From: Bacteroidales bacterium
Lineage (GTDB): Bacteria; Bacteroidota; Bacteroidia; Bacteroidales; ML635J-15
Direction of reading: 5' to 3'
Assembly: GCA_028702675.1 (NCBI GenBank)
Contig: JAQVOJ010000014.1
Coordinates: 1 to 41,373, forward strand
Length of the DNA stretch: 41,373 nucleotides
Shown here: positions 1,513 to 17,702 of the stretch, piece by piece
How positions within the stretch are numbered: the stretch's first letter is position 1
Layout of the letters: every line of letters begins with the position of its first letter
The notes under the pieces: generated by a model
What the model was told of the DNA's origin: nothing
Seen by the model: only the letters and a program-made list of their open reading frames with translations
The model's database searches: none
Made by a program: the position numbers and the translations under genes

Positions 1513-2781
1513 TTAAATATTAAACTCTTTTTTTAACTTATCAACATAGTCAAGTTTCTCCCATGTAAATAGTTCTACCTCTATATCCAATTCGTAAGGT
1601 GGATTATATGGAGAACTGAAATGCTTCTTTACAATTCGTGGAGTGCGACCAAAATGACCATAGCTTGCAGTTTCTTTGTAAATAGGATTCCTTAGTTTTA
1701 ATCTTTCTTCGATAGCAGCCGGACGCATATCAAAAATCTGAGTTATTTTTTTAGCAATATTACCATCACTCATATTTACCTTAGCTGTTCCATAGGTATT
1801 TACAAACAAACCAACAGGTTTAGCAACTCCAATTGCGTAAGCTACTTGAATCAGTACTTCGTCGCAAATGCCTGCAGCAACCATGTTCTTTGCCATATGT
1901 CTGGCTGCATAAGCTGCCGAACGGTCAACTTTTGAAGGGTCTTTACCCGAAAAGGCTCCTCCACCATGTGCTCCTTTACCTCCATATGTGTCAACAATTA
2001 TTTTACGCCCTGTAAGACCTGTATCTCCGTGAGGTCCACCAATTACAAACTTTCCTGTAGGGTTTACATGAAGTGTATAGTCGTTACCAATAAGCGAAGC
2101 AACTCTTTCTGACAATTGTGACTTAACGCGTGGAATCAAAATATTTTGTACATCATCTTTGATTTTATTAAGCATTTTATTTTCGTCAGCATCAAAATCA
2201 TCATGTTGAGTCGAAACTACTATAGTGTCAACTCTCAAAGGCTGGTTATTATCACTATATTCTATTGTAACTTGCGATTTTGAATCAGGACGCAGATAAG
2301 TCATAACTTTACCTTCGCGTCTTATCACTGCAAGTTCTTGCAATAAACGATGTGATAAATCAAGTGAAAGTGGCATATAATTATCGGTATCTTTTGAAGC
2401 ATATCCAAACATCATACCCTGATCGCCTGCACCTTGCTCTTTATGTAATCCAACATTCTCTGTAACCCCCTGATTAATATCTGGGGATTGCTCGTGAATT
2501 GCAACTAATACACCACATGAATTTCCATCGAAACGATACTCACTTTTAGTATATCCAATTTCATTAATTACTTGTCTGGCTGCTTCTTGCAAATCCACAT
2601 AAGTATTACTTTTAACTTCTCCGGCAACTACAACCTGCCCAGTTGTTACCAGAGTTTCGCATGCAACTTTCGAATTCTTATCGAAAGCCAAAAAATCGTC
2701 TAAGATGGCATCTGAAATTTGGTCTGAAACCTTATCGGGATGTCCTTCCGAAACAGATTCTGATGTAAAATAATATCCCAT
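1513..2781 (-). CDS. metK: S-adenosylmethionine synthase
   Basis: MetK makes S-adenosylmethionine from methionine and ATP in the cytoplasm. The 422-residue protein carries SEGHPDKV (residues 11-18) at the N-terminus, the ATP-binding [12 protein letters not shown] motif (117-128) and the glycine-rich loop [19 protein letters not shown] (273-291). It is longer than the roughly 384 residues of E. coli MetK; Bacteroidota forms are usually of this longer size. The gene is monocistronic, convergent with the NMO gene, and preceded by a TAAATTTG promoter and a leader RNA that folds as a SAM-II riboswitch. The likely control is therefore feedback repression by its own product. The start ATG has no Shine-Dalgarno. 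Confidence 0.98.
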
Positions 2782-2841
2782 TTCTTTATATATTTAATTA
2801 CACAATATTAGTCGAAAGTGGGGATTGTACTGCTCAGAAGC

Positions 2842-2893
2842 GGTGTTTTAGCATTCTTTTCCTGTGGTTGCAATCACCCAAATCTTTCCACAT
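2842..2893 (-). promoter_or_regulatory. SAM-II riboswitch aptamer in the metK leader
   Basis: Read on the minus strand, the leader shows the SAM-II H-type pseudoknot. P1 is TGTGG (2892-2888) with CCACA (2867-2863). Loop 1 contains GATTT, five bases and ATTGCA, the family signature. In P2, GGTG (2878-2875) pairs with CACC (2845-2842), and GC (2871-2870) pairs with GC (2852-2851). GCTAAA (2852-2847), the conserved 3' strand that contacts SAM, is intact. The family is known from Alphaproteobacteria and Bacteroidota, where it controls methionine and SAM genes. The aptamer ends 60 nt before the metK ATG. I identified it by eye, without a covariance search. Confidence 0.85.
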
Positions 2894-2903
2894 AATTTAA
2901 TGA

Positions 2904-2934
2904 CAAATTTAAATCCTTTTATTATTATAAACAA
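2904..2934 (-). promoter_or_regulatory. metK promoter (TTG -33, TAAATTTG -7)
   Basis: On the minus strand, TAAATTTG (2911-2904) is a perfect TAnnTTTG -7 box, and TTG (2934-2932) lies 20 nt upstream as a -33 core. A start about seven bases downstream would place the first transcribed base just before P1 of the SAM-II aptamer, so promoter and riboswitch support each other. Confidence 0.65.
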
Positions 2935-2960
2935 GATTTTAATAATTCTTTTCATTTTAT

Positions 2961-2968
2961 TATATTTG
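2961..2968 (+). promoter_or_regulatory. -7 box (TATATTTG) of the bactofilin/ATP synthase operon
   Basis: It is a perfect TAnnTTTG match 33 bases before the bactofilin ATG. The upstream -33 region is T-rich (TTTT at 2937-2940) but lacks a clear TTTG. It is the only good promoter box I see before the nine-gene operon. Confidence 0.6.
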
Positions 2969-3001
2969 CAAACCTTGTGTTTTACTAAAAATCATTGAGT
3001 T

Positions 3002-3397
3002 ATGGCAAAAAATTTTGAACCGGAACAAGACAGTCACAATACTATCGGCAATGGAACAACGATAAAAGGCGATATTATTTCTAATGGAGACATTAGAATT
3101 GATGGACAATTACAAGGCAATTTACAAATTAAAGGTAAACTTGTAGTTGGGAATTCAGGAAAAATCATTGGAGAAGTTGATTGTAAAAACTCCGAAATAT
3201 CTGGAACGGTAGAGGGTAAGTTAGTTGTTAATGAGCTACTAAACTTAAAATCGAGTGCAAAGATTATGGGTGATATTATTACTTCTAAACTCTCAATTGA
3301 ACCAGGTGCAAGTTTTACAGGCACTTGTAATATGGGAGGGAATAAACACGAGCCTAAAGCTCCTGTTGAAAACATTGATGCAAAACAAGAAAAATAA
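3002..3397 (+). CDS. bactofilin family polymer-forming cytoskeletal protein
   Basis: A 131-residue protein of the bactofilin (DUF583) family. Bactofilins assemble without nucleotide into beta-helical filaments under the membrane and scaffold cell-wall or morphology enzymes. The central region from about residue 17 to 112 shows the regular short-strand repeat pattern (I-x-G-D/E-I, V-x-G-x-L) ending in TSKLSIEPGASFTG, the usual end of the helical core. The N- and C-terminal tails are charged and probably disordered. There is no membrane segment. It is the first gene of the ATP synthase operon, and its last 20 bases overlap the start of the atpZ gene. The family call is firm, but the specific cellular role is unknown. 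Confidence 0.9.
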   Translation: MAKNFEPEQDSHNTIGNGTTIKGDIISNGDIRIDGQLQGNLQIKGKLVVGNSGKIIGEVDCKNSEISGTVEGKLVVNELLNLKSSAKIMGDIITSKLSIEPGASFTGTCNMGGNKHEPKAPVENIDAKQEK

Positions 3398-3599
3398 TAA
3401 TCTCCCTTGGCAAAAATATGCCGAGATAACCGGTATTATTATCGAAATGATATTAATAATTGGAGGATTTGTATATGCCGGAATTTGGCTTGACGAAAAA
3501 AAATTCATTGATTTTCCAATATTTACAATTGTGTTATCTCTGGCAGGCGTAGGTATTGCTATGTATTTATTAATTAAACAAGCTAATAGAAATCAGTAA
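3378..3599 (+). CDS. AtpZ/AtpI family small membrane protein of the ATP synthase operon
   Basis: A 73-residue protein with two membrane helices (about residues 17-36 and 45-66) joined by the short loop LDEKKFIDFP. This is the hairpin architecture of the AtpZ/AtpI family, proposed to aid c-ring assembly or Mg2+ supply for the F-type ATP synthase. I chose the ATG at 3378 because earlier in-frame starts would lie deep inside the bactofilin gene and add a non-membrane tail. With this start it overlaps the bactofilin gene by 20 bases, which suggests translational coupling. The next gene follows after exactly TT (TAATTATG). The family assignment is from topology, short motifs and operon position. 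Confidence 0.8.
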   Translation: MQNKKNNNLPWQKYAEITGIIIEMILIIGGFVYAGIWLDEKKFIDFPIFTIVLSLAGVGIAMYLLIKQANRNQ

Positions 3600-3601
3600 T
3601 T

Positions 3602-4000
3602 ATGATTAAAGCTTTTTTTAAGCATATATCATTATTGTCGGGGTTTGGAATTATTATTTTTTTAATTCATTACCTTTTGAGTAAAGCATTAACAATTTTG
3701 CATTCCGAACAACTCATGTTTGATGTTCATATATTTATGTTCTTGTTAACTGCCGGAGGAATAATTGCAAGTTTATATCTATTGAAAAAACGCTCGCAAT
3801 TTGTTGGTTTTGCATTTGTTGGTGTTAGTGTCTTAAAAATGCTTTTATCAACAATTTTTTTATACCCTATAATAAAAGGGGAGCTTGATAATCCAAAGGT
3901 TTATGTTGTACAATTTATAATTATATACTTTGTGTATCTAGCTTATGAGGTATTGTATATTATTAATCTGCTTAAAAACAGTAATTCTTTGGACGAATGA
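3602..4000 (+). CDS. four-helix membrane protein between atpZ and atpB
   Basis: A 132-residue hydrophobic protein with four predicted membrane helices (about 8-30, 43-62, 66-90 and 100-124) and a short polar C-terminus. It occupies the slot between atpZ and atpB, where many Bacteroidota carry a poorly characterised protein (annotated in some genomes as DUF6168). The topology resembles the classical AtpI (four helices), which works with AtpZ in c-ring assembly or Mg2+ transport. That parallel is my inference, as no diagnostic residue is visible. It is in the operon: stop-TT-start spacing follows atpZ, and 50 bases precede atpB. Confidence 0.7.
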   Translation: MIKAFFKHISLLSGFGIIIFLIHYLLSKALTILHSEQLMFDVHIFMFLLTAGGIIASLYLLKKRSQFVGFAFVGVSVLKMLLSTIFLYPIIKGELDNPKVYVVQFIIIYFVYLAYEVLYIINLLKNSNSLDE

Positions 4001-4050
4001 TTTTTTTGATTATTTTCGTGTTTTCAATCTTGAAATCAAATTTATTTTGA

Positions 4051-5151
4051 ATGAAAGTCTCTTTATTTAAATACCTAATATTAAGCTTATTGATTATTGC
4101 ATCAAATGCTCTATTAGCCTCTGAAGAGGCTGACACTACTAAATCTAACGACTTTGATGTTAATGAAGTATTGATGCACCATATAAAGGACACTTACGAA
4201 TGGCATATACTAGATTATGTGAATAAAAACGACGAGCACGTTGTTGTTAGCATCCCTTTTCCAATAATTCTTATCGGTAACGGTCAATTTGATATATTTA
4301 TGTCTTCTGAGTTTCATCATGGCGATAAAACTGTAAAACGAGGAAATAACGAGTACATACTTTACCACGAAAAAATTTATTATAAATCGGAAAATGGTAA
4401 TGAACATGGTATTGAATATAAACTTAACGATAAAGGAGAAAAAATAGTTGCTAATGCTAAACCTTTAGATTTTTCGATTACAAAAAATGTAGTAGGTGTA
4501 TTTTTGATAGTTATTGTTATGCTACTTATTTTTTTAAGCGTAGCAAGAGGATACAAAAAACGACCTGGACGCCCCGCCGGATTACAAGCTTTTATGGAAC
4601 CTGTAATATTATTTGTAAAAAATGATATAGTTGTACCCGTAATCGGAGAACACAAATCTGAAAAATTCTTACCTTATTTACTTACAGTTTTCTTTTTTAT
4701 CCTATTTGGAAATCTATTTGGATTAATGCCAATATTTCTAGGAGGAGCAAATGTTACAGGGAATATTTCCGTAACATTTACATTAGCTCTTTTTACAATG
4801 CTAATAACAAACTTTTCTGGAAATAAAGAGTATTGGAAACACATTTTTGCAGTTCCCGGAGTGCCAATTTGGTTATATCCAATTATGATACCAGTTGAAC
4901 TTCTAGGAATAATAATTAAGCCATTTGCTCTTATGGTTCGTTTATTTGCAAACATTACTGCAGGTCATATAATTGTTTTAAGTCTTATCTCTGTAATTTT
5001 TATATTCAAATCGGCTGTTATGGCATCAGTTTCAATTCCATTAGGATTGTTTATGAATATATTAGAATTACTTGTAGCATTTTTACAAGCGTATGTATTT
5101 ACAATGCTTTCGGCTTTGTTTATTGGATTGGCGGTACAAGAAGAACATTAA
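4051..5151 (+). CDS. atpB: F-type ATP synthase subunit a
   Basis: This is the proton-channel stator subunit of F0. The 366 residues begin with a signal-peptide-like segment (1-23), then an extra-cytoplasmic polar domain (about 24-140) that proteobacterial subunit a lacks but Bacteroidota forms commonly have. The canonical membrane core follows. The essential arginine is Arg297 in PVELLGIIIKPFALMVRLFAN (281-301). The last helices contain MNILELLVAFLQAYVFTML with Gln346, the usual partner in the exit half-channel. The start ATG at 4051 is favoured because the signal peptide follows directly. It is followed by atpE after 47 bases. Confidence 0.97.
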   Translation: MKVSLFKYLILSLLIIASNALLASEEADTTKSNDFDVNEVLMHHIKDTYEWHILDYVNKNDEHVVVSIPFPIILIGNGQFDIFMSSEFHHGDKTVKRGNNEYILYHEKIYYKSENGNEHGIEYKLNDKGEKIVANAKPLDFSITKNVVGVFLIVIVMLLIFLSVARGYKKRPGRPAGLQAFMEPVILFVKNDIVVPVIGEHKSEKFLPYLLTVFFFILFGNLFGLMPIFLGGANVTGNISVTFTLALFTMLITNFSGNKEYWKHIFAVPGVPIWLYPIMIPVELLGIIIKPFALMVRLFANITAGHIIVLSLISVIFIFKSAVMASVSIPLGLFMNILELLVAFLQAYVFTMLSALFIGLAVQEEH

Positions 5152-5198
5152 TAATAATTGAATTATGAATTTTTTTGTTTCATTAAATATATAAAGTT

Positions 5199-5402
5199 AT
5201 GGTAGGATTAGCTAGTATTGGTGCAGCAATAGCAGTAATTGGAGCAGCTTATGGTATCGGTAAAATCGGTGCTGGAGCTATGGACGCTATTGCACGCCAG
5301 CCTGAAGCAGCAGGTAAAATACAAATGGCAATGATTATTGCTGCCGCTCTAGTAGAGGGTGTAGCACTTTTTGCTGTTGTTGTTGCTTTGTTGCAAGGTT
5401 AA
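5199..5402 (+). CDS. atpE: F-type ATP synthase subunit c
   Basis: A 67-residue hairpin of two membrane helices forming the rotor ring. The polar loop carries ARQPEA (residues 32-37) and the ion-binding carboxylate is Glu53 in [10 protein letters not shown]. Compared with the Na+-coordinating c subunit of Ilyobacter, the Gln32 position is Ile20, Ser66 and Thr67 are Gly54 and Val55, and Tyr70 is Phe58. All Na+ ligands other than the Glu are missing, so the ring should carry protons. It is short for the family. A strong hairpin directly downstream separates it from atpF. Confidence 0.97.
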
Positions 5403-5408
5403 AAAAAT

Positions 5409-5455
5409 CTGTCTCTCTTAGAGCGGTTGGCTCAGAGAGACAGTTCTATTTTTTT
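5409..5455 (+). terminator. terminator-like hairpin between atpE and atpF
   Basis: CTGTCTCTCT (5409-5418) pairs perfectly with AGAGAGACAG (5434-5443). An inner stem GAGC/GCTC (5421-5424 with 5430-5433) lies beyond a two-base bulge, and the loop is GGTTG. A T-rich tract follows at 5449-5455. It lies within the operon just after the gene for the most abundant subunit, so it may act as an attenuator or as a 3' stabiliser of atpE mRNA. Confidence 0.75.
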
Positions 5456-5484
5456 GTTTAATTAATTTTTAAAATTATTGAGTT

Positions 5485-5979
5485 ATGGATTTAGTAACTC
5501 CGAATGTAGGCTTAATTTTTTGGACTGGAATACTATTCGTCCTTTTGTTGCTCATACTCTGGAAGTTCGCTTGGAAACCAATTCTTGGAACAATTAACAA
5601 ACGAAACCAAAGTATCGAAGATGCACTTAATGCTGCCGATAAAGCTCGTCAAGATATGCAAAAGCTACAAGCTGATAACAAAAAGATTATTGCCGAAGCA
5701 GCCACAGAAAGAGACCGCATGCTTAAAGAAGCTAGAGAATTTGGGGATGATATCATAAAAAAAGCAAAAGAAGATGCTAAACTAGAGATCATAAAACTTA
5801 AAGAAAATGCTCAAATGGAGATATCAGCACAAAAAGCCGGCGCAATTAATGAAATTAAAAATCAAGTAGCAGTACTTTCAGTTGATATTGCCGAAAAAAT
5901 CTTAAGACGATCTTTAAGTACCGAAGAGAAACACGACGATCTAGTCAATGATATGTTGAAAGATATTAAGTTGAATTAA
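5485..5979 (+). CDS. atpF: F-type ATP synthase subunit b
   Basis: The 164-residue peripheral-stalk subunit links F0 to F1. One membrane helix sits at the N-terminus (about residues 8-28, FWTGILFVLLLLILWKFAW). A long charged helix rich in Ala, Lys, Glu and Asp runs to about residue 140 and forms the dimeric stalk. The C-terminal segment with LSVDIAEKILRRSLS contacts delta. The length is typical. The gene starts 82 bases after atpE, past a terminator-like hairpin. Its start context ATTGAGTTATGG is identical to that of the bactofilin gene, and its stop is separated from the atpH start by two bases (TAATTATG). Confidence 0.96.
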   Translation: MDLVTPNVGLIFWTGILFVLLLLILWKFAWKPILGTINKRNQSIEDALNAADKARQDMQKLQADNKKIIAEAATERDRMLKEAREFGDDIIKKAKEDAKLEIIKLKENAQMEISAQKAGAINEIKNQVAVLSVDIAEKILRRSLSTEEKHDDLVNDMLKDIKLN

Positions 5980-5981
5980 TT

Positions 5982-6539
5982 ATGAACCACAGCAGAATAG
6001 CAGTTAGATATGCAAAAGCCTTGTTTCTTACAGCATTAGAAAAAGATATGCTTGATAAGATACATAATGATATTGTTGTAATTAATCAGACTGTTATAAA
6101 TAATCCTAATATTATTGAAGCCTTAAAAAGCCCTGTAATTAAACCATCAAAAAAGAAGATCTTATTCCAACAAATATTTGATGAATTTATTGATAATCTT
6201 AGTATGGATTTCTTTAAACTTGTGATCAATAATTCACGCGAAATATTTATATCAGATATCTGTAGGGATTTTAAAGACCTTTATCGAAAAGAAAAAAACA
6301 TTATGAATGCAGAGTTGTGTACTGCAGTAGAATTGAAGCAGAATACAATTGATAAAATTTCAAATTTGCTCAAGGAAGCGAATCATGCAGATATTAACAT
6401 AGAAACTAAAGTTGACGAAAAATTACTGGGCGGCTTTGTACTTAAACTAGATGACAAACTATTAGATTCAAGTATTGCTAATTCCTTAAAGCAAATACAA
6501 AAGGCTCTAAAATCAAATGATTATCAAAGAAAATTGTAA
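5982..6539 (+). CDS. atpH: F-type ATP synthase subunit delta
   Basis: The 185-residue delta (OSCP) subunit caps the alpha3beta3 head and binds subunit b. The N-terminal helical bundle starts with SRIAVRYAKALFLTALEK (4-21), the hallmark of the family. The C-terminal part contains the conserved hydrophobic strand LLGGFVLKLDDKLLDSSIANSLKQI (residues 148-172), which matches the G-G-x-x-(I/V)-(K/R)-(I/V)-x-D-x-(V/L)-x-D-x-S signature. It lies between atpF and atpA on the same strand with close spacing. Confidence 0.96.
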   Translation: MNHSRIAVRYAKALFLTALEKDMLDKIHNDIVVINQTVINNPNIIEALKSPVIKPSKKKILFQQIFDEFIDNLSMDFFKLVINNSREIFISDICRDFKDLYRKEKNIMNAELCTAVELKQNTIDKISNLLKEANHADINIETKVDEKLLGGFVLKLDDKLLDSSIANSLKQIQKALKSNDYQRKL

Positions 6540-6570
6540 AGTTATTGATTAAGAAATAAAATAATTAGAT

Positions 6571-8157
6571 ATGGCAGACATTAAACCATCAGAAGTTTCT
6601 GAAATATTAAAACAACAGCTCGAAGGATTTCAGAATAGCACACAACTTGAAGAGGTTGGCTCTGTATTGGAAGTAGGCGATGGTATTGCTCGAATTTACG
6701 GACTCACAAAAGTTCAGGCAAATGAATTAATAGAATTCGAAAATGGTGATAAAGGTATTGTCCTAAACCTCGAAGAAGATAATGTTGGTGCAGTGTTGCT
6801 GGGAAATAGTTCAGACATTAAAGAAGGAGATACTGTAAAGCGTTTGCAAAGAATAGCATCAATCAAAGTTGGCGAAAGCTTATTGGGAAGAGTTATTAAT
6901 ACAATTGGAGAACCTATAGACGGAAAAGGCCCAATTGAAGGTGAATTATTTGAATTACCTTTGGAAAGAAAAGCTCCCGGAGTTATTTATCGTCAACCGG
7001 TAAACGAACCTATCCAAACAGGAATTACCGCTATTGATGCTATGACACCAATAGGTCGTGGACAGCGTGAGCTAATAATTGGAGACCGTCAGACAGGAAA
7101 AACTGCTATCGCAATTGATACAATAATTAATCAAAAACAATATTACGACAAAGGAGAACCTGTATATTGTATTTATGTAGCCATTGGTCAGAAAGGCTCA
7201 ACAGTAGCTCGTATAGCTGCTATTCTCGAAGACAAAGGAGCTATGCCTTATACTGTAATAGTAAGCTCTACTGCATCCGATCCAGCAGCTATGCAGTTTT
7301 ATGCTCCATTTGCAGGAGCCGCAATTGGAGAATTTTTCAGAGACACCGGTAAACCTGCATTAATTATTTATGACGACTTGAGCAAACAAGCTGTATCATA
7401 CCGAGAAGTATCATTATTGCTCCGTCGCCCTCCAGGACGTGAAGCTTATCCCGGTGATGTTTTTTATTTGCACTCTAGACTGTTAGAAAGAGCTGCAAAA
7501 ATTATTGAATCAGATACAATTGCCAGACAAATGAACGATTTACCCGATTGCTTAAAAGATAAAGTAAAGGGTGGTGGTTCTCTTACTGCATTGCCAATAA
7601 TTGAGACACAAGCAGGAGATGTTTCTGCATATATCCCTACAAATGTAATTTCTATTACTGACGGACAAATTTTCCTCGAAAGCAACTTGTTTAATGCAGG
7701 TGTACGTCCTGCTATTAATGTTGGTATCTCAGTATCGCGAGTAGGAGGTAATGCACAAATTAAATCTATGAAAAAAGTTGCCGGTACTCTTAAAATTGAC
7801 CAGTCGGCATACCGGGAACTTGAAGCATTTGCTAAATTTGGATCAGACCTTGACGCATCAACATTATCTATTATAGATAAAGGTCGTAAAAATGTTGAAA
7901 TATTAAAGCAAGGCCAATATCAACCCGTAAAAGTTGAAGATCAAATTTCGATGATATTTCTTGGAACAAATGCTTTGTTACGAAAAATTCCTATCGATAA
8001 AATTAAAGAATTTGAAAAAGAGTTTCTAAGTTATTTACACTTAAAACACGAAGATGATGTAATGAAACCTCTTGCCGAAGGTAAAATATCAAATGACATT
8101 ACTGATATTTTAAAACAAGTTGCAGCTGAAATAACTGAAAAATACAAAGTTGAATAA
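6571..8157 (+). CDS. atpA: F-type ATP synthase subunit alpha
   Basis: The 528-residue non-catalytic nucleotide-binding subunit of F1. The N-terminal beta barrel is followed by the Walker A loop GDRQTGKT (171-178), the [12 protein letters not shown] strand carrying Walker B, and the late [17 protein letters not shown] motif whose Arg reaches into the catalytic site of beta. Length and motif order are normal. The catalytic partner beta (atpD) and epsilon (atpC) are not in this window, so they must be encoded elsewhere. The stop is two bases before the atpG start (TAATTATG). Confidence 0.98.
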
Positions 8158-8159
8158 TT

Positions 8160-9032
8160 ATGGGAGGACTTAAAGAAATACGTTTGCGAATAAGTTCTGT
8201 AAAGTCCACAAGGCAAATTACTAGCGCCATGAAAATGGTTGCTGCTGCCAGACTAAAGGGTGCTCAAGACAAAATTACAGGCTTTAGACCCTTTGCAAAA
8301 AAAATGGATGAAATCATTTCAGGCCTTGGCATCGACAGCAAAGAACTCGAAAAATTCCCAATTACTGCACAACCCGAGCCAGATCGTGTTCTTATTGTAT
8401 TATTTACCTCAAACAGAGGACTCTGCGGCGGTTTCAATACTAATATTTATAAAAAATCAATTGAACTGATTGAAAATTCTTATTCAGATCAACTAAAAGA
8501 AAATAATTTGCATTACTTATGTATTGGGCGTAAGGGTGCTGATATGATTAAAAAGAAAAACATTAAAATCATTGAATCTGTCAATGAATTGTATGATGAT
8601 TTAAGTTTTGAAAATGTATCAAAAATGGCAGATCGCTTAATCAATTTCTTTTTATCAGGAGATTATTCGCGAATTGAACTTGTTTACAACGAGTTTAAAA
8701 ATGCTGCCGTTCAGGTACAAAAAACCGAACCTCTTTTACCCGTTGATATATCGCAAGGAGAAGATAGAAGCGGATTTTATATTTTTGAACCAAACCGCGA
8801 AGCATTGCTTAATAATCTGGTACCTAAGATGATTAGGTTAAAGTTTTTTAAAGCAATCCTAGATAGCAATGCTGCTGAACAAGGTGCAAGAATGACAGCA
8901 ATGCATCAAGCTACAGATAATGCTACTGAACTAATTCGTGAACTTACTTTACAATATAACAAAGCTCGTCAAGCTGCGATTACAAACGAAATACTCGAAA
9001 TTACTAGTGGTGCAGAAGCATTAAAATCATAA
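8160..9032 (+). CDS. atpG: F-type ATP synthase subunit gamma
   Basis: The 290-residue central rotor shaft. The N-terminal helix has the family signature RISSVKSTRQITSAMKMVAA (11-30), and the C-terminal helix ends in the conserved MTAMHQATDNATELIRELTLQYNKARQAAIT region, in which the two helices form the coiled coil inside the alpha-beta head. The middle alpha/beta domain carries TSNRGLCGGFN. It is the last gene of the operon and converges with the SixA-like gene. Confidence 0.97.
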   Translation: MGGLKEIRLRISSVKSTRQITSAMKMVAAARLKGAQDKITGFRPFAKKMDEIISGLGIDSKELEKFPITAQPEPDRVLIVLFTSNRGLCGGFNTNIYKKSIELIENSYSDQLKENNLHYLCIGRKGADMIKKKNIKIIESVNELYDDLSFENVSKMADRLINFFLSGDYSRIELVYNEFKNAAVQVQKTEPLLPVDISQGEDRSGFYIFEPNREALLNNLVPKMIRLKFFKAILDSNAAEQGARMTAMHQATDNATELIRELTLQYNKARQAAITNEILEITSGAEALKS

Positions 9033-15961: not shown

Positions 15962-16034
15962 GCCAATGTAGCTCAGTTGGTAGAGCAGCTGATTTGTAAT
16001 CAGCCGGTCGGCGGTTCGAGTCCGTTCATTGGCT
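15962..16034 (+). tRNA. tRNA-Thr (TGT)
   Basis: Acceptor stem GCCAATG/CATTGGC, D stem GCTC/GAGC, anticodon loop TTTGTAA with TGT, T loop TTCGAGT. The discriminator is T and CCA is not encoded. It is the first of four tRNAs in the order Thr-Tyr-Gly-Thr before tuf. Confidence 0.95.
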
Positions 16035-16054
16035 CAAGTTGATAATTTTTGTTT

Positions 16055-16137
16055 GGGGAGATACCAAAGTGGCCAACTGGGGCAGACTGTAAATCTGCTG
16101 GCGTACGCCTTCGTAGGTTCGAATCCTGCTCTCCCCA
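16055..16137 (+). tRNA. tRNA-Tyr (GTA)
   Basis: A class II tRNA with a long variable arm. The acceptor stem is GGGGAGA/TCTCCCC and the anticodon stem CAGA/TCTG holds loop CTGTAAA with GTA. The variable arm is GCGTACGCCTTCG-like and the discriminator is A. Confidence 0.95.
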
Positions 16138-16157
16138 CAACACTAATATTGCAGGAT

Positions 16158-16230
16158 GCGGGAATAGCTCAGTTGGTAGAGCACAACCCTTCCAAGGTTG
16201 GGGTCGCGAGTTCGAGCCTCGTTTCCCGCT
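16158..16230 (+). tRNA. tRNA-Gly (TCC)
   Basis: Acceptor stem GCGGGAA/TTCCCGC, D stem GCTC/GAGC, anticodon loop with TCC inside CCTTCCAAGG, T loop TTCGAGC. Discriminator T, no encoded CCA. Confidence 0.95.
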
Positions 16231-16238
16231 CTTTTTCT

Positions 16239-16310
16239 GCCAAAGTAGCTCAGGGGTAGAGCGTTTCCTTGGTAAGGAAGAGGTCACGGGTTCAATTCCC
16301 GTCTTTGGCT
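16239..16310 (+). tRNA. tRNA-Thr (GGT)
   Basis: Acceptor stem GCCAAAG/CTTTGGC. The anticodon stem TTTCC/GGAAG encloses loop TTGGTAA with GGT. Discriminator T. It is followed by tuf after 76 A+T-rich bases. Confidence 0.95.
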
Positions 16311-17629: not shown

Positions 17630-17702
17630 ACGGGTGTAGCTCAATTGGCAGAGCGACGGTCTCCAAAACCGTAGGCTGTGGGTTCGATTCCTACCACCCG
17701 TG
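17630..17702 (+). tRNA. tRNA-Trp (CCA)
   Basis: Acceptor stem ACGGGTG/CACCCGT with discriminator G, the usual tRNA-Trp identity base. Anticodon stem ACGGT/ACCGT with loop CTCCAAA and anticodon CCA. It sits between tuf and secE, a common place for this tRNA in bacteria. Confidence 0.95.

Follow-up and report, generated by a model that had tools for sequence, protein, structure and literature searches.

A SAM-II-type aptamer upstream of metK in a Bacteroidales genome and a predicted anti-aptamer in the spacers of Bacteroidota metK leaders

The presence of SAM-II riboswitches in Bacteroidota is not new: Bacteroides thetaiotaomicron already stood in the SAM-II alignment given by Corbino 2005 (PMC1273637), and “SAM-II long loops” (RF01726) were listed for Bacteroidetes and marine sequences in the main text of Weinberg 2010 (PMC2864571). 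The textbook mode of SAM-II, as described in passages of PMC10907184, is occlusion. An initial annotation of the locus reported here took an aptamer abutting the ribosome site as the classical case; passages of PMC6061858 describe this arrangement as a rare translational form, most SAM-II riboswitches being transcriptional. Bacteroidetes mRNAs are moreover described as being without Shine-Dalgarno sequences (PMC6847099), so the textbook SAM-II occlusion cannot apply as such to an aptamer that ends 60 nt from the start codon.

Here, we analyzed a 41,373-nt stretch of DNA, hereafter the window (contig JAQVOJ010000014.1 of a Bacteroidales bacterium, GCA_028702675.1). Scanning the window with cmscan against 4227 Rfam families placed RF01726, “SAM-II (long loop)”, in the leader of metK (Table 1), where the model aligned in full length (positions 1-60) with 63.5 bits, above its gathering cut-off of 44 bits, and an E value of 4.5e-10, or 3.3e-12 when only the 302 bases from 2700 to 3001 were scanned. 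Searched against the same 4227 families at E up to 1, this segment held no other plausible family, the only further match being a chance one of 16.6 bits, and neither SAM-V nor any of the remaining Rfam SAM riboswitch models matched the site. The initial annotation had proposed a SAM-II riboswitch and named RF00521 as the model by which to check it; at E up to 1 this model did not match the site (its 12 matches in the genome at E up to 10 all lie elsewhere), so that the claim would fail if that test were taken literally, the matching family being RF01726. The class itself is nevertheless supported by a score well above the cut-off, and the features that had been listed (P1, the GATTT-N5-ATTGCA loop, both pseudoknot pairings and GCTAAA) are all borne out by the sequence. 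The second of these pairings would join the GC in TTGCA with the GC in AATGCTAAA. The first, P2a, covaries among leaders that have an A before TTGCA as the window does (n=74, z 6.3), while leaders with a C at this place have no immediate P2a (z 0.0). Judged from its sequence, the element is almost certainly a SAM-II riboswitch aptamer; the family is known, and neither this member nor its position is out of the ordinary.

Table 1. Features of the metK leader and its surroundings (positions in the window).
Feature	Position	Strand	Basis
Bacteroidota-type promoter	2904..2934 (TTG 2934-2932, 20 nt, TAAATTTG 2911-2904)	-	sequence and conservation
SAM-II aptamer (RF01726, long loop)	2838..2897	-	full-length cmscan match, sole RF01726 match in genome
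P1	TGTGG 2892-2888 with CCACA 2867-2863	-	sequence
Aptamer loop	GATTT 2884-2880, GGGTG 2879-2875, ATTGCA 2874-2869	-	sequence
Pseudoknot P2a	GGTG 2878-2875, can pair with CACC 2845-2842	-	sequence
Pseudoknot 3' strand	2842..2852 (GCTAAA 2852-2847, A, CACC 2845-2842)	-	sequence
Aptamer 5' half, one strand of the proposed SAM-free duplex	2870..2892 (P1 5' strand 2892-2888 and SAM-pocket loop)	-	duplex energy
Anti-aptamer strand (predicted), ACAATCCCCACTTTCGACT	2810..2828	-	complementary to aptamer 5' half
Spacer (expression platform), 65 nt, GCTAAA to metK start	2782..2846	-	sequence
metK, S-adenosylmethionine synthetase, 422 aa	1513..2781	-	ORF and Pfam

RF01726 matches the 3.09 Mb genome at this site only, and SAM-I (RF00162) was not found in a whole-genome search. 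Two further RF00521 candidates for a second SAM-II, of 24.1 and 19.9 bits, both fall below the cut-off and were treated as chance; the former lies inside a topA-like ORF and the latter in the gap that precedes a holA-like ORF (names from a reading of the translations). Beyond this genome, RF01726 is present in 48 of 61 relatives, in 67 of 396 genomes sampled from the class and in 64 of 394 sampled from the phylum, the last two draws sharing many genomes. Some near-complete relatives of the same order, such as G033, G052 and G057, were not matched. With 48 of 61 relatives carrying the family, and examples in print since 2005 and 2010 in the papers cited above, the locus is not the notable Bacteroidota example that the initial annotation saw in it. 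At 109 of 112 RF01726 places from related genomes (the relatives and class sets together, oriented) metK lies downstream; three places were dropped before the counts, namely a sub-threshold hairpin without metK (L084) and two loci (L038, L042) with only 47 and 83 nt of contig left after the aptamer.

The metK product of the window carries all three S-AdoMet synthetase domains (PF00438, PF02772, PF02773), which supports the proposed target gene. The aptamer match ends (2838) 56 nt from the gene, and the 60 nt given earlier for the distance between the end of CACC (2842) and the metK ATG (2781-2779) is correct. The spacer had also been thought unusually long; counted from GCTAAA to ATG it measures 65 nt, against a median of 72 and a range of 53-292 in 109 leaders, so its length is normal. 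On the other side of the leader a bactofilin gene runs in the opposite orientation, divergent from metK. An ATP synthase gene cluster, recognized from the translations, adjoins this divergent pair at 3255-9032 (+), and five of the window's tRNA matches form a tRNA gene cluster (+) at 15962-16310 and 17630-17702.

Between TAAATTTG of the promoter and the GTGG of P1 there are 12 nt. The promoter consensus TAnnTTTG, as quoted in a passage of PMC7366714, occurs 3-25 nt (median 13) upstream of P1's GNGG in 140 of 166 dereplicated leaders, compared with a mean of 3.6 for shuffled upstream regions, and the suggestion that the promoter is placed for a start before P1 agrees with this spacing. Because the motif keeps a conserved distance, the transcript most likely begins just before P1, with a predicted start a few nucleotides upstream of it.

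When leaders were compared side by side, parts of the spacer were seen to be complementary to the aptamer loop of the same leader. To put this in numbers, the duplex energy of each loop, or of each aptamer 5' half (the P1 5' strand plus the SAM-pocket loop), with the spacer of the same leader (taken as nt 10-75 past GCTAAA) was set against that with spacers swapped between leaders. For the loop only, 64 dereplicated leaders gave a mean of -11.0 for own and -8.7 (sd 0.25) for swapped spacers, reached in 0 of 5000 permutations; counting Watson-Crick runs instead of computing energies gave a weaker contrast (5.95 vs 5.37, 0/20000). Mapped by segment in 61 leaders, the loop pairs with spacer nt 17-34 (z -8.8), the pocket strand with 25-42 (z -3.4) and the P1 5' strand with 33-50 (z -3.3), an order that has the geometry of one antiparallel duplex across the whole aptamer 5' half. 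The pairing recurs in an independent set that was not used to form the idea and from which leaders similar to the first set were removed. Its 137 loci lost 25 (9 without the pattern, 5 short, 2 without metK and 9 whose metK begins at or within the aptamer), and the 112 kept became 89 after removal of near-copies. In these 89 leaders the 5' half pairs with the own spacer at z -8.3 (0/20000) and the P1 5' strand at z -2.2, whereas the controls gave z 0.4 for the P1 3' strand, 0.1 for the core, -0.9 for upstream DNA and -1.8 for the first 66 nt of metK.

Pooling yielded 153 dereplicated leaders, 13 long-loop leaders being left out, with own and swapped means of -16.6 and -13.6 kcal/mol (z -14.1, 0/5000). 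The difference persists when swaps are binned by GC content (z -12.6), when only 31 leaders with spacer identity of at most 0.45 are kept (z -5.8) and when one leader per unique loop is taken (n=104, z -12.8), and a reversed-spacer control gave z -1.1. Taken one by one, 72 of the 153 leaders reach p <=0.05 against dinucleotide shuffles. Spacer-length limits reduce the set to 137 leaders for the ensemble and GC-binned tests and for the C-over-G count given below. In pseudoknot-free ensembles, 115 of 137 leaders have more than 40% of their 5' half in pairs with the spacer (0.84, against 0.42 with shuffled spacers). None of the energies used here takes in the pseudoknot or SAM. Folded by itself, the spacer shows no structure (MFE z -0.24, 61 leaders). 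These comparisons lead us to conclude that across Bacteroidota the spacer carries a predicted anti-aptamer, complementary to the 5' half of its own aptamer. Comparison is what supports the pairing; the duplex would probably correspond to the SAM-free state.

Several leaders depart from the common form. An extra hairpin stands in the aptamer loop of the class-level leaders L094, L095, L105, L108, L110-L112, L114 and L116-L121, which have GTG, ATT or ATG before CTAA of the core and score low with RF01726, several of them below the cut-off; in L090, L098, L102-L104, L106, L107 and L109, long additional hairpins separate P1 from the GCTAAA strand. For the loop-hairpin clade, a spacer that sequesters the GCTAA core seemed good in L095 and L105, and by eye in L108, and was discarded at z -0.5 in 13 leaders. 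An RF01726-like aptamer of L175 (uncultured Bacteroidetes AG-349-C04) precedes a gene other than metK, whose start reads MEDSKLSTKALHAGHDT, suggestive of a PLP-dependent enzyme of the methionine pathway.

In the window the duplex reaches -19.1 kcal/mol, a value as good being found in 25 of 2000 dinucleotide shuffles and 16 of 152 other spacers; for the loop only, p is 0.16 and not significant. The pseudoknot-free ensemble is dominated by the duplex, with 66% of the 5' half paired to the spacer, and the whole leader folds to an MFE of -22.4 (z -1.89, 3 of 200 shuffles as good). The nearest relative, G004, whose MetK is 81% identical, has the identical block TACAATCCCCA between differing flanking bases, but taken by itself its duplex does not reach significance, 406 of 2000 shuffles doing equally well. 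Given the loop value and that of G004, the evidence at the window is modest, and its case leans mainly on the population result.

Put together, we think it probable on balance that this SAM-II riboswitch (RF01726) would turn metK off when SAM is plentiful, a feedback suggested by the aptamer family and the gene. Transcription would start just before P1, as the conserved promoter position suggests, and with SAM the first ~56 nt would fold into the P1/P2 pseudoknot around the ligand, as expected from family membership. Without SAM, once the spacer has been transcribed, 2828-2810 would pair with 2892-2870, opening P1, the pocket and the P2 5' strand, so that the bound fold and the anti-aptamer fold would be mutually exclusive. 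SAM binding would leave the spacer free, which in a minority of relatives could then fold into an intrinsic terminator. The output would most likely be premature termination, with the anti-aptamer as antiterminator.

Termination is the favoured output because terminators, found in a minority of relatives, mostly compete with the anti-aptamer; we put its probability at about even. Intrinsic terminators of at least 7 bp lie in the spacers of 16 of 166 leaders against 1.5 expected from shuffling, and of at least 5 bp in 22 against 5.8; examples are L137 (CCACAAGC-TAAAACAGTC-GCTTGTGG-CGTTTTTTTT) and L221 (TCAAATCTTCC...T8). In 12 of 16 leaders, taken from the 22 with terminators, the anti-aptamer duplex uses bases of a terminator arm, mostly the 5' arm (a count from a search bounded at the terminator end and made without a null), and such sharing is the logic of terminator and antiterminator. 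A terminator between P2 and the ORF, the mark of a transcription-terminating SAM-II, is thus present in 22 of 166 leaders and absent from the window, and the terminator scan found no intrinsic terminator or stable hairpin in the window spacer or in 144 of the 166. The final step in the window and in most leaders would therefore be Rho-dependent or otherwise non-canonical, and in these terminator-less leaders the output may be Rho-dependent termination, translation or decay. Compared with other upstream regions the spacers of 58 loci are rich in C (0.229 vs 0.171, p 1e-4), G being 0.149 vs 0.170 (p 0.07), and C exceeds G outside the predicted duplex too (86 vs 27 of 128 leaders). As a sign of Rho this is suggestive only, since the spacer pairs with a G-rich strand and the enrichment may partly be a by-product. 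The spacers of L137, L130 and L167 (Paludibacteraceae and relatives) hold textbook intrinsic terminators or sequences that nearly copy one; the terminator loop contains ACAGTC, which is complementary to GACTG in the aptamer loop.

A purely translational switch, in which SAM binding would limit access to the start region, whether directly or by letting the freed spacer pair with it, is possible and in our estimate rather unlikely. It draws on nine of the 137 loci of the independent set in which metK starts 0-5 nt after GCTAAA, as GCTAAA|ATG (L149, L152, L212, L155, L145, L171, L208, L142), or at the core's own ATG (L133). These loci place the ribosome-binding region in or next to P2, and without a spacer the anti-aptamer cannot exist in one; their sequences are most naturally read as direct occlusion of the start, which also seems to be the only possibility. 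The window differs in having its ATG 60 nt from the aptamer end, where the known occlusion route is unavailable in a phylum described as lacking Shine-Dalgarno sequences (PMC6847099). Spacer nt 10-42 do pair weakly with -22 to +20 of the own start in comparison with swapped ones (GC-binned z -3.3, 4/5000) and the aptamer 5' half tends not to pair with the start region (z +2.9), yet taken segment by segment the start-region signal is weak (z -2.3 to -0.2). The SAM-II of Sinorhizobium metA is described in PMC9373788 as acting on translation 74 nt downstream, but clear terminators in relatives speak against a switch with no transcriptional step. The zero-spacer trait requires at least five changes on a MetK tree of 102 rows, a quick tree without bootstrap.

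Regulation of mRNA stability, where the freed spacer would be an entry site for RNase and the anti-aptamer duplex would protect, appears improbable. It would suit the unstructured state of the lone spacer noted above, and SAM-II of Sinorhizobium is reported to alter mRNA stability; according to the same paper (PMC9373788), however, SAM stabilized that mRNA, which is the opposite sign. More improbable still, the spacer complement might be a displaced P2a 3' strand of the SAM-bound fold instead of an anti-aptamer. In some relatives the only good loop partner (e.g., GGATG/CATCC) does lie about 17-20 nt past GCTAAA, and leaders with C before TTGCA have no immediate P2a, but the pairing extends into the pocket strand and the P1 5' strand (z -3.3 and z -2.2 in the two sets), which the bound fold needs, and the spacer complement is just as present (z -8.4) in leaders of the window's kind, whose immediate P2a covaries. 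We hardly credit a regulatory upstream ORF, translated in a SAM-dependent manner from the ATG that most leaders have in the core AATGCTAAA (6 codons in the window; in L133 the metK start itself), and set it aside because its conservation is no better than shuffled, ORFs overlapping the metK start in 28 of 151 leaders against 29 with shuffled spacers, with widely varying lengths.

Returning to the anti-aptamer as SAM-free antiterminator, we tentatively propose, with a little less than even confidence, that Bacteroidota metK riboswitches share a platform that invades the whole aptamer 5' half and that, in a phylum lacking Shine-Dalgarno sequences, the output of this platform has changed again and again. 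Some leaders would end in a terminator, others have the start codon joined directly to the aptamer or lying within it, and most, including the window, would be terminator-less and probably Rho-dependent. metK is essential, and this riboswitch stands on it across much of Bacteroidota, gut and oral genera included. For the question of how a riboswitch is linked to expression in such a phylum, the conserved anti-aptamer offers a specific and testable switch of two exclusive folds with named bases, and nature provides a series of leaders with a terminator, without one and without any spacer.

In relation to described systems, what appears to be new here is the conserved, predicted anti-aptamer platform, the aptamer, the metK setting and SAM-II in Bacteroidetes being already known. 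We found no description of such a platform in the literature searched, which took in main-text passages of the 2010 paper. The RF01726 elements of Weinberg 2010 (PMC2864571) belong to the same covariance family and phylum, and the window element, upstream of metK, has an aptamer no different from theirs; an anti-aptamer spacer was not found in the main-text passages of that paper. With RF00521 (SAM_alpha, the metA-motif), as presented in passages of Corbino 2005 (PMC1273637), the window shares P1 and pseudoknot, GCTAAA and a promoter just before P1, but that model does not match it, and the alpha-proteobacterial members often have terminators where the window has none. The metX SAM-II from the Sargasso Sea metagenome (2QWY; passages of PMC10907184 and PMC6061858) has the same aptamer architecture, yet it carries its Shine-Dalgarno within P2 for direct occlusion, whereas the window, which belongs to a phylum lacking Shine-Dalgarno sequences, has 65 nt of spacer and a predicted competing duplex. 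The window would share with terminator/antiterminator riboswitches in general a ligand-free duplex between an aptamer strand and a platform strand, which in a minority of relatives goes together with a terminator; it differs from them in that its own leader is without a canonical one.
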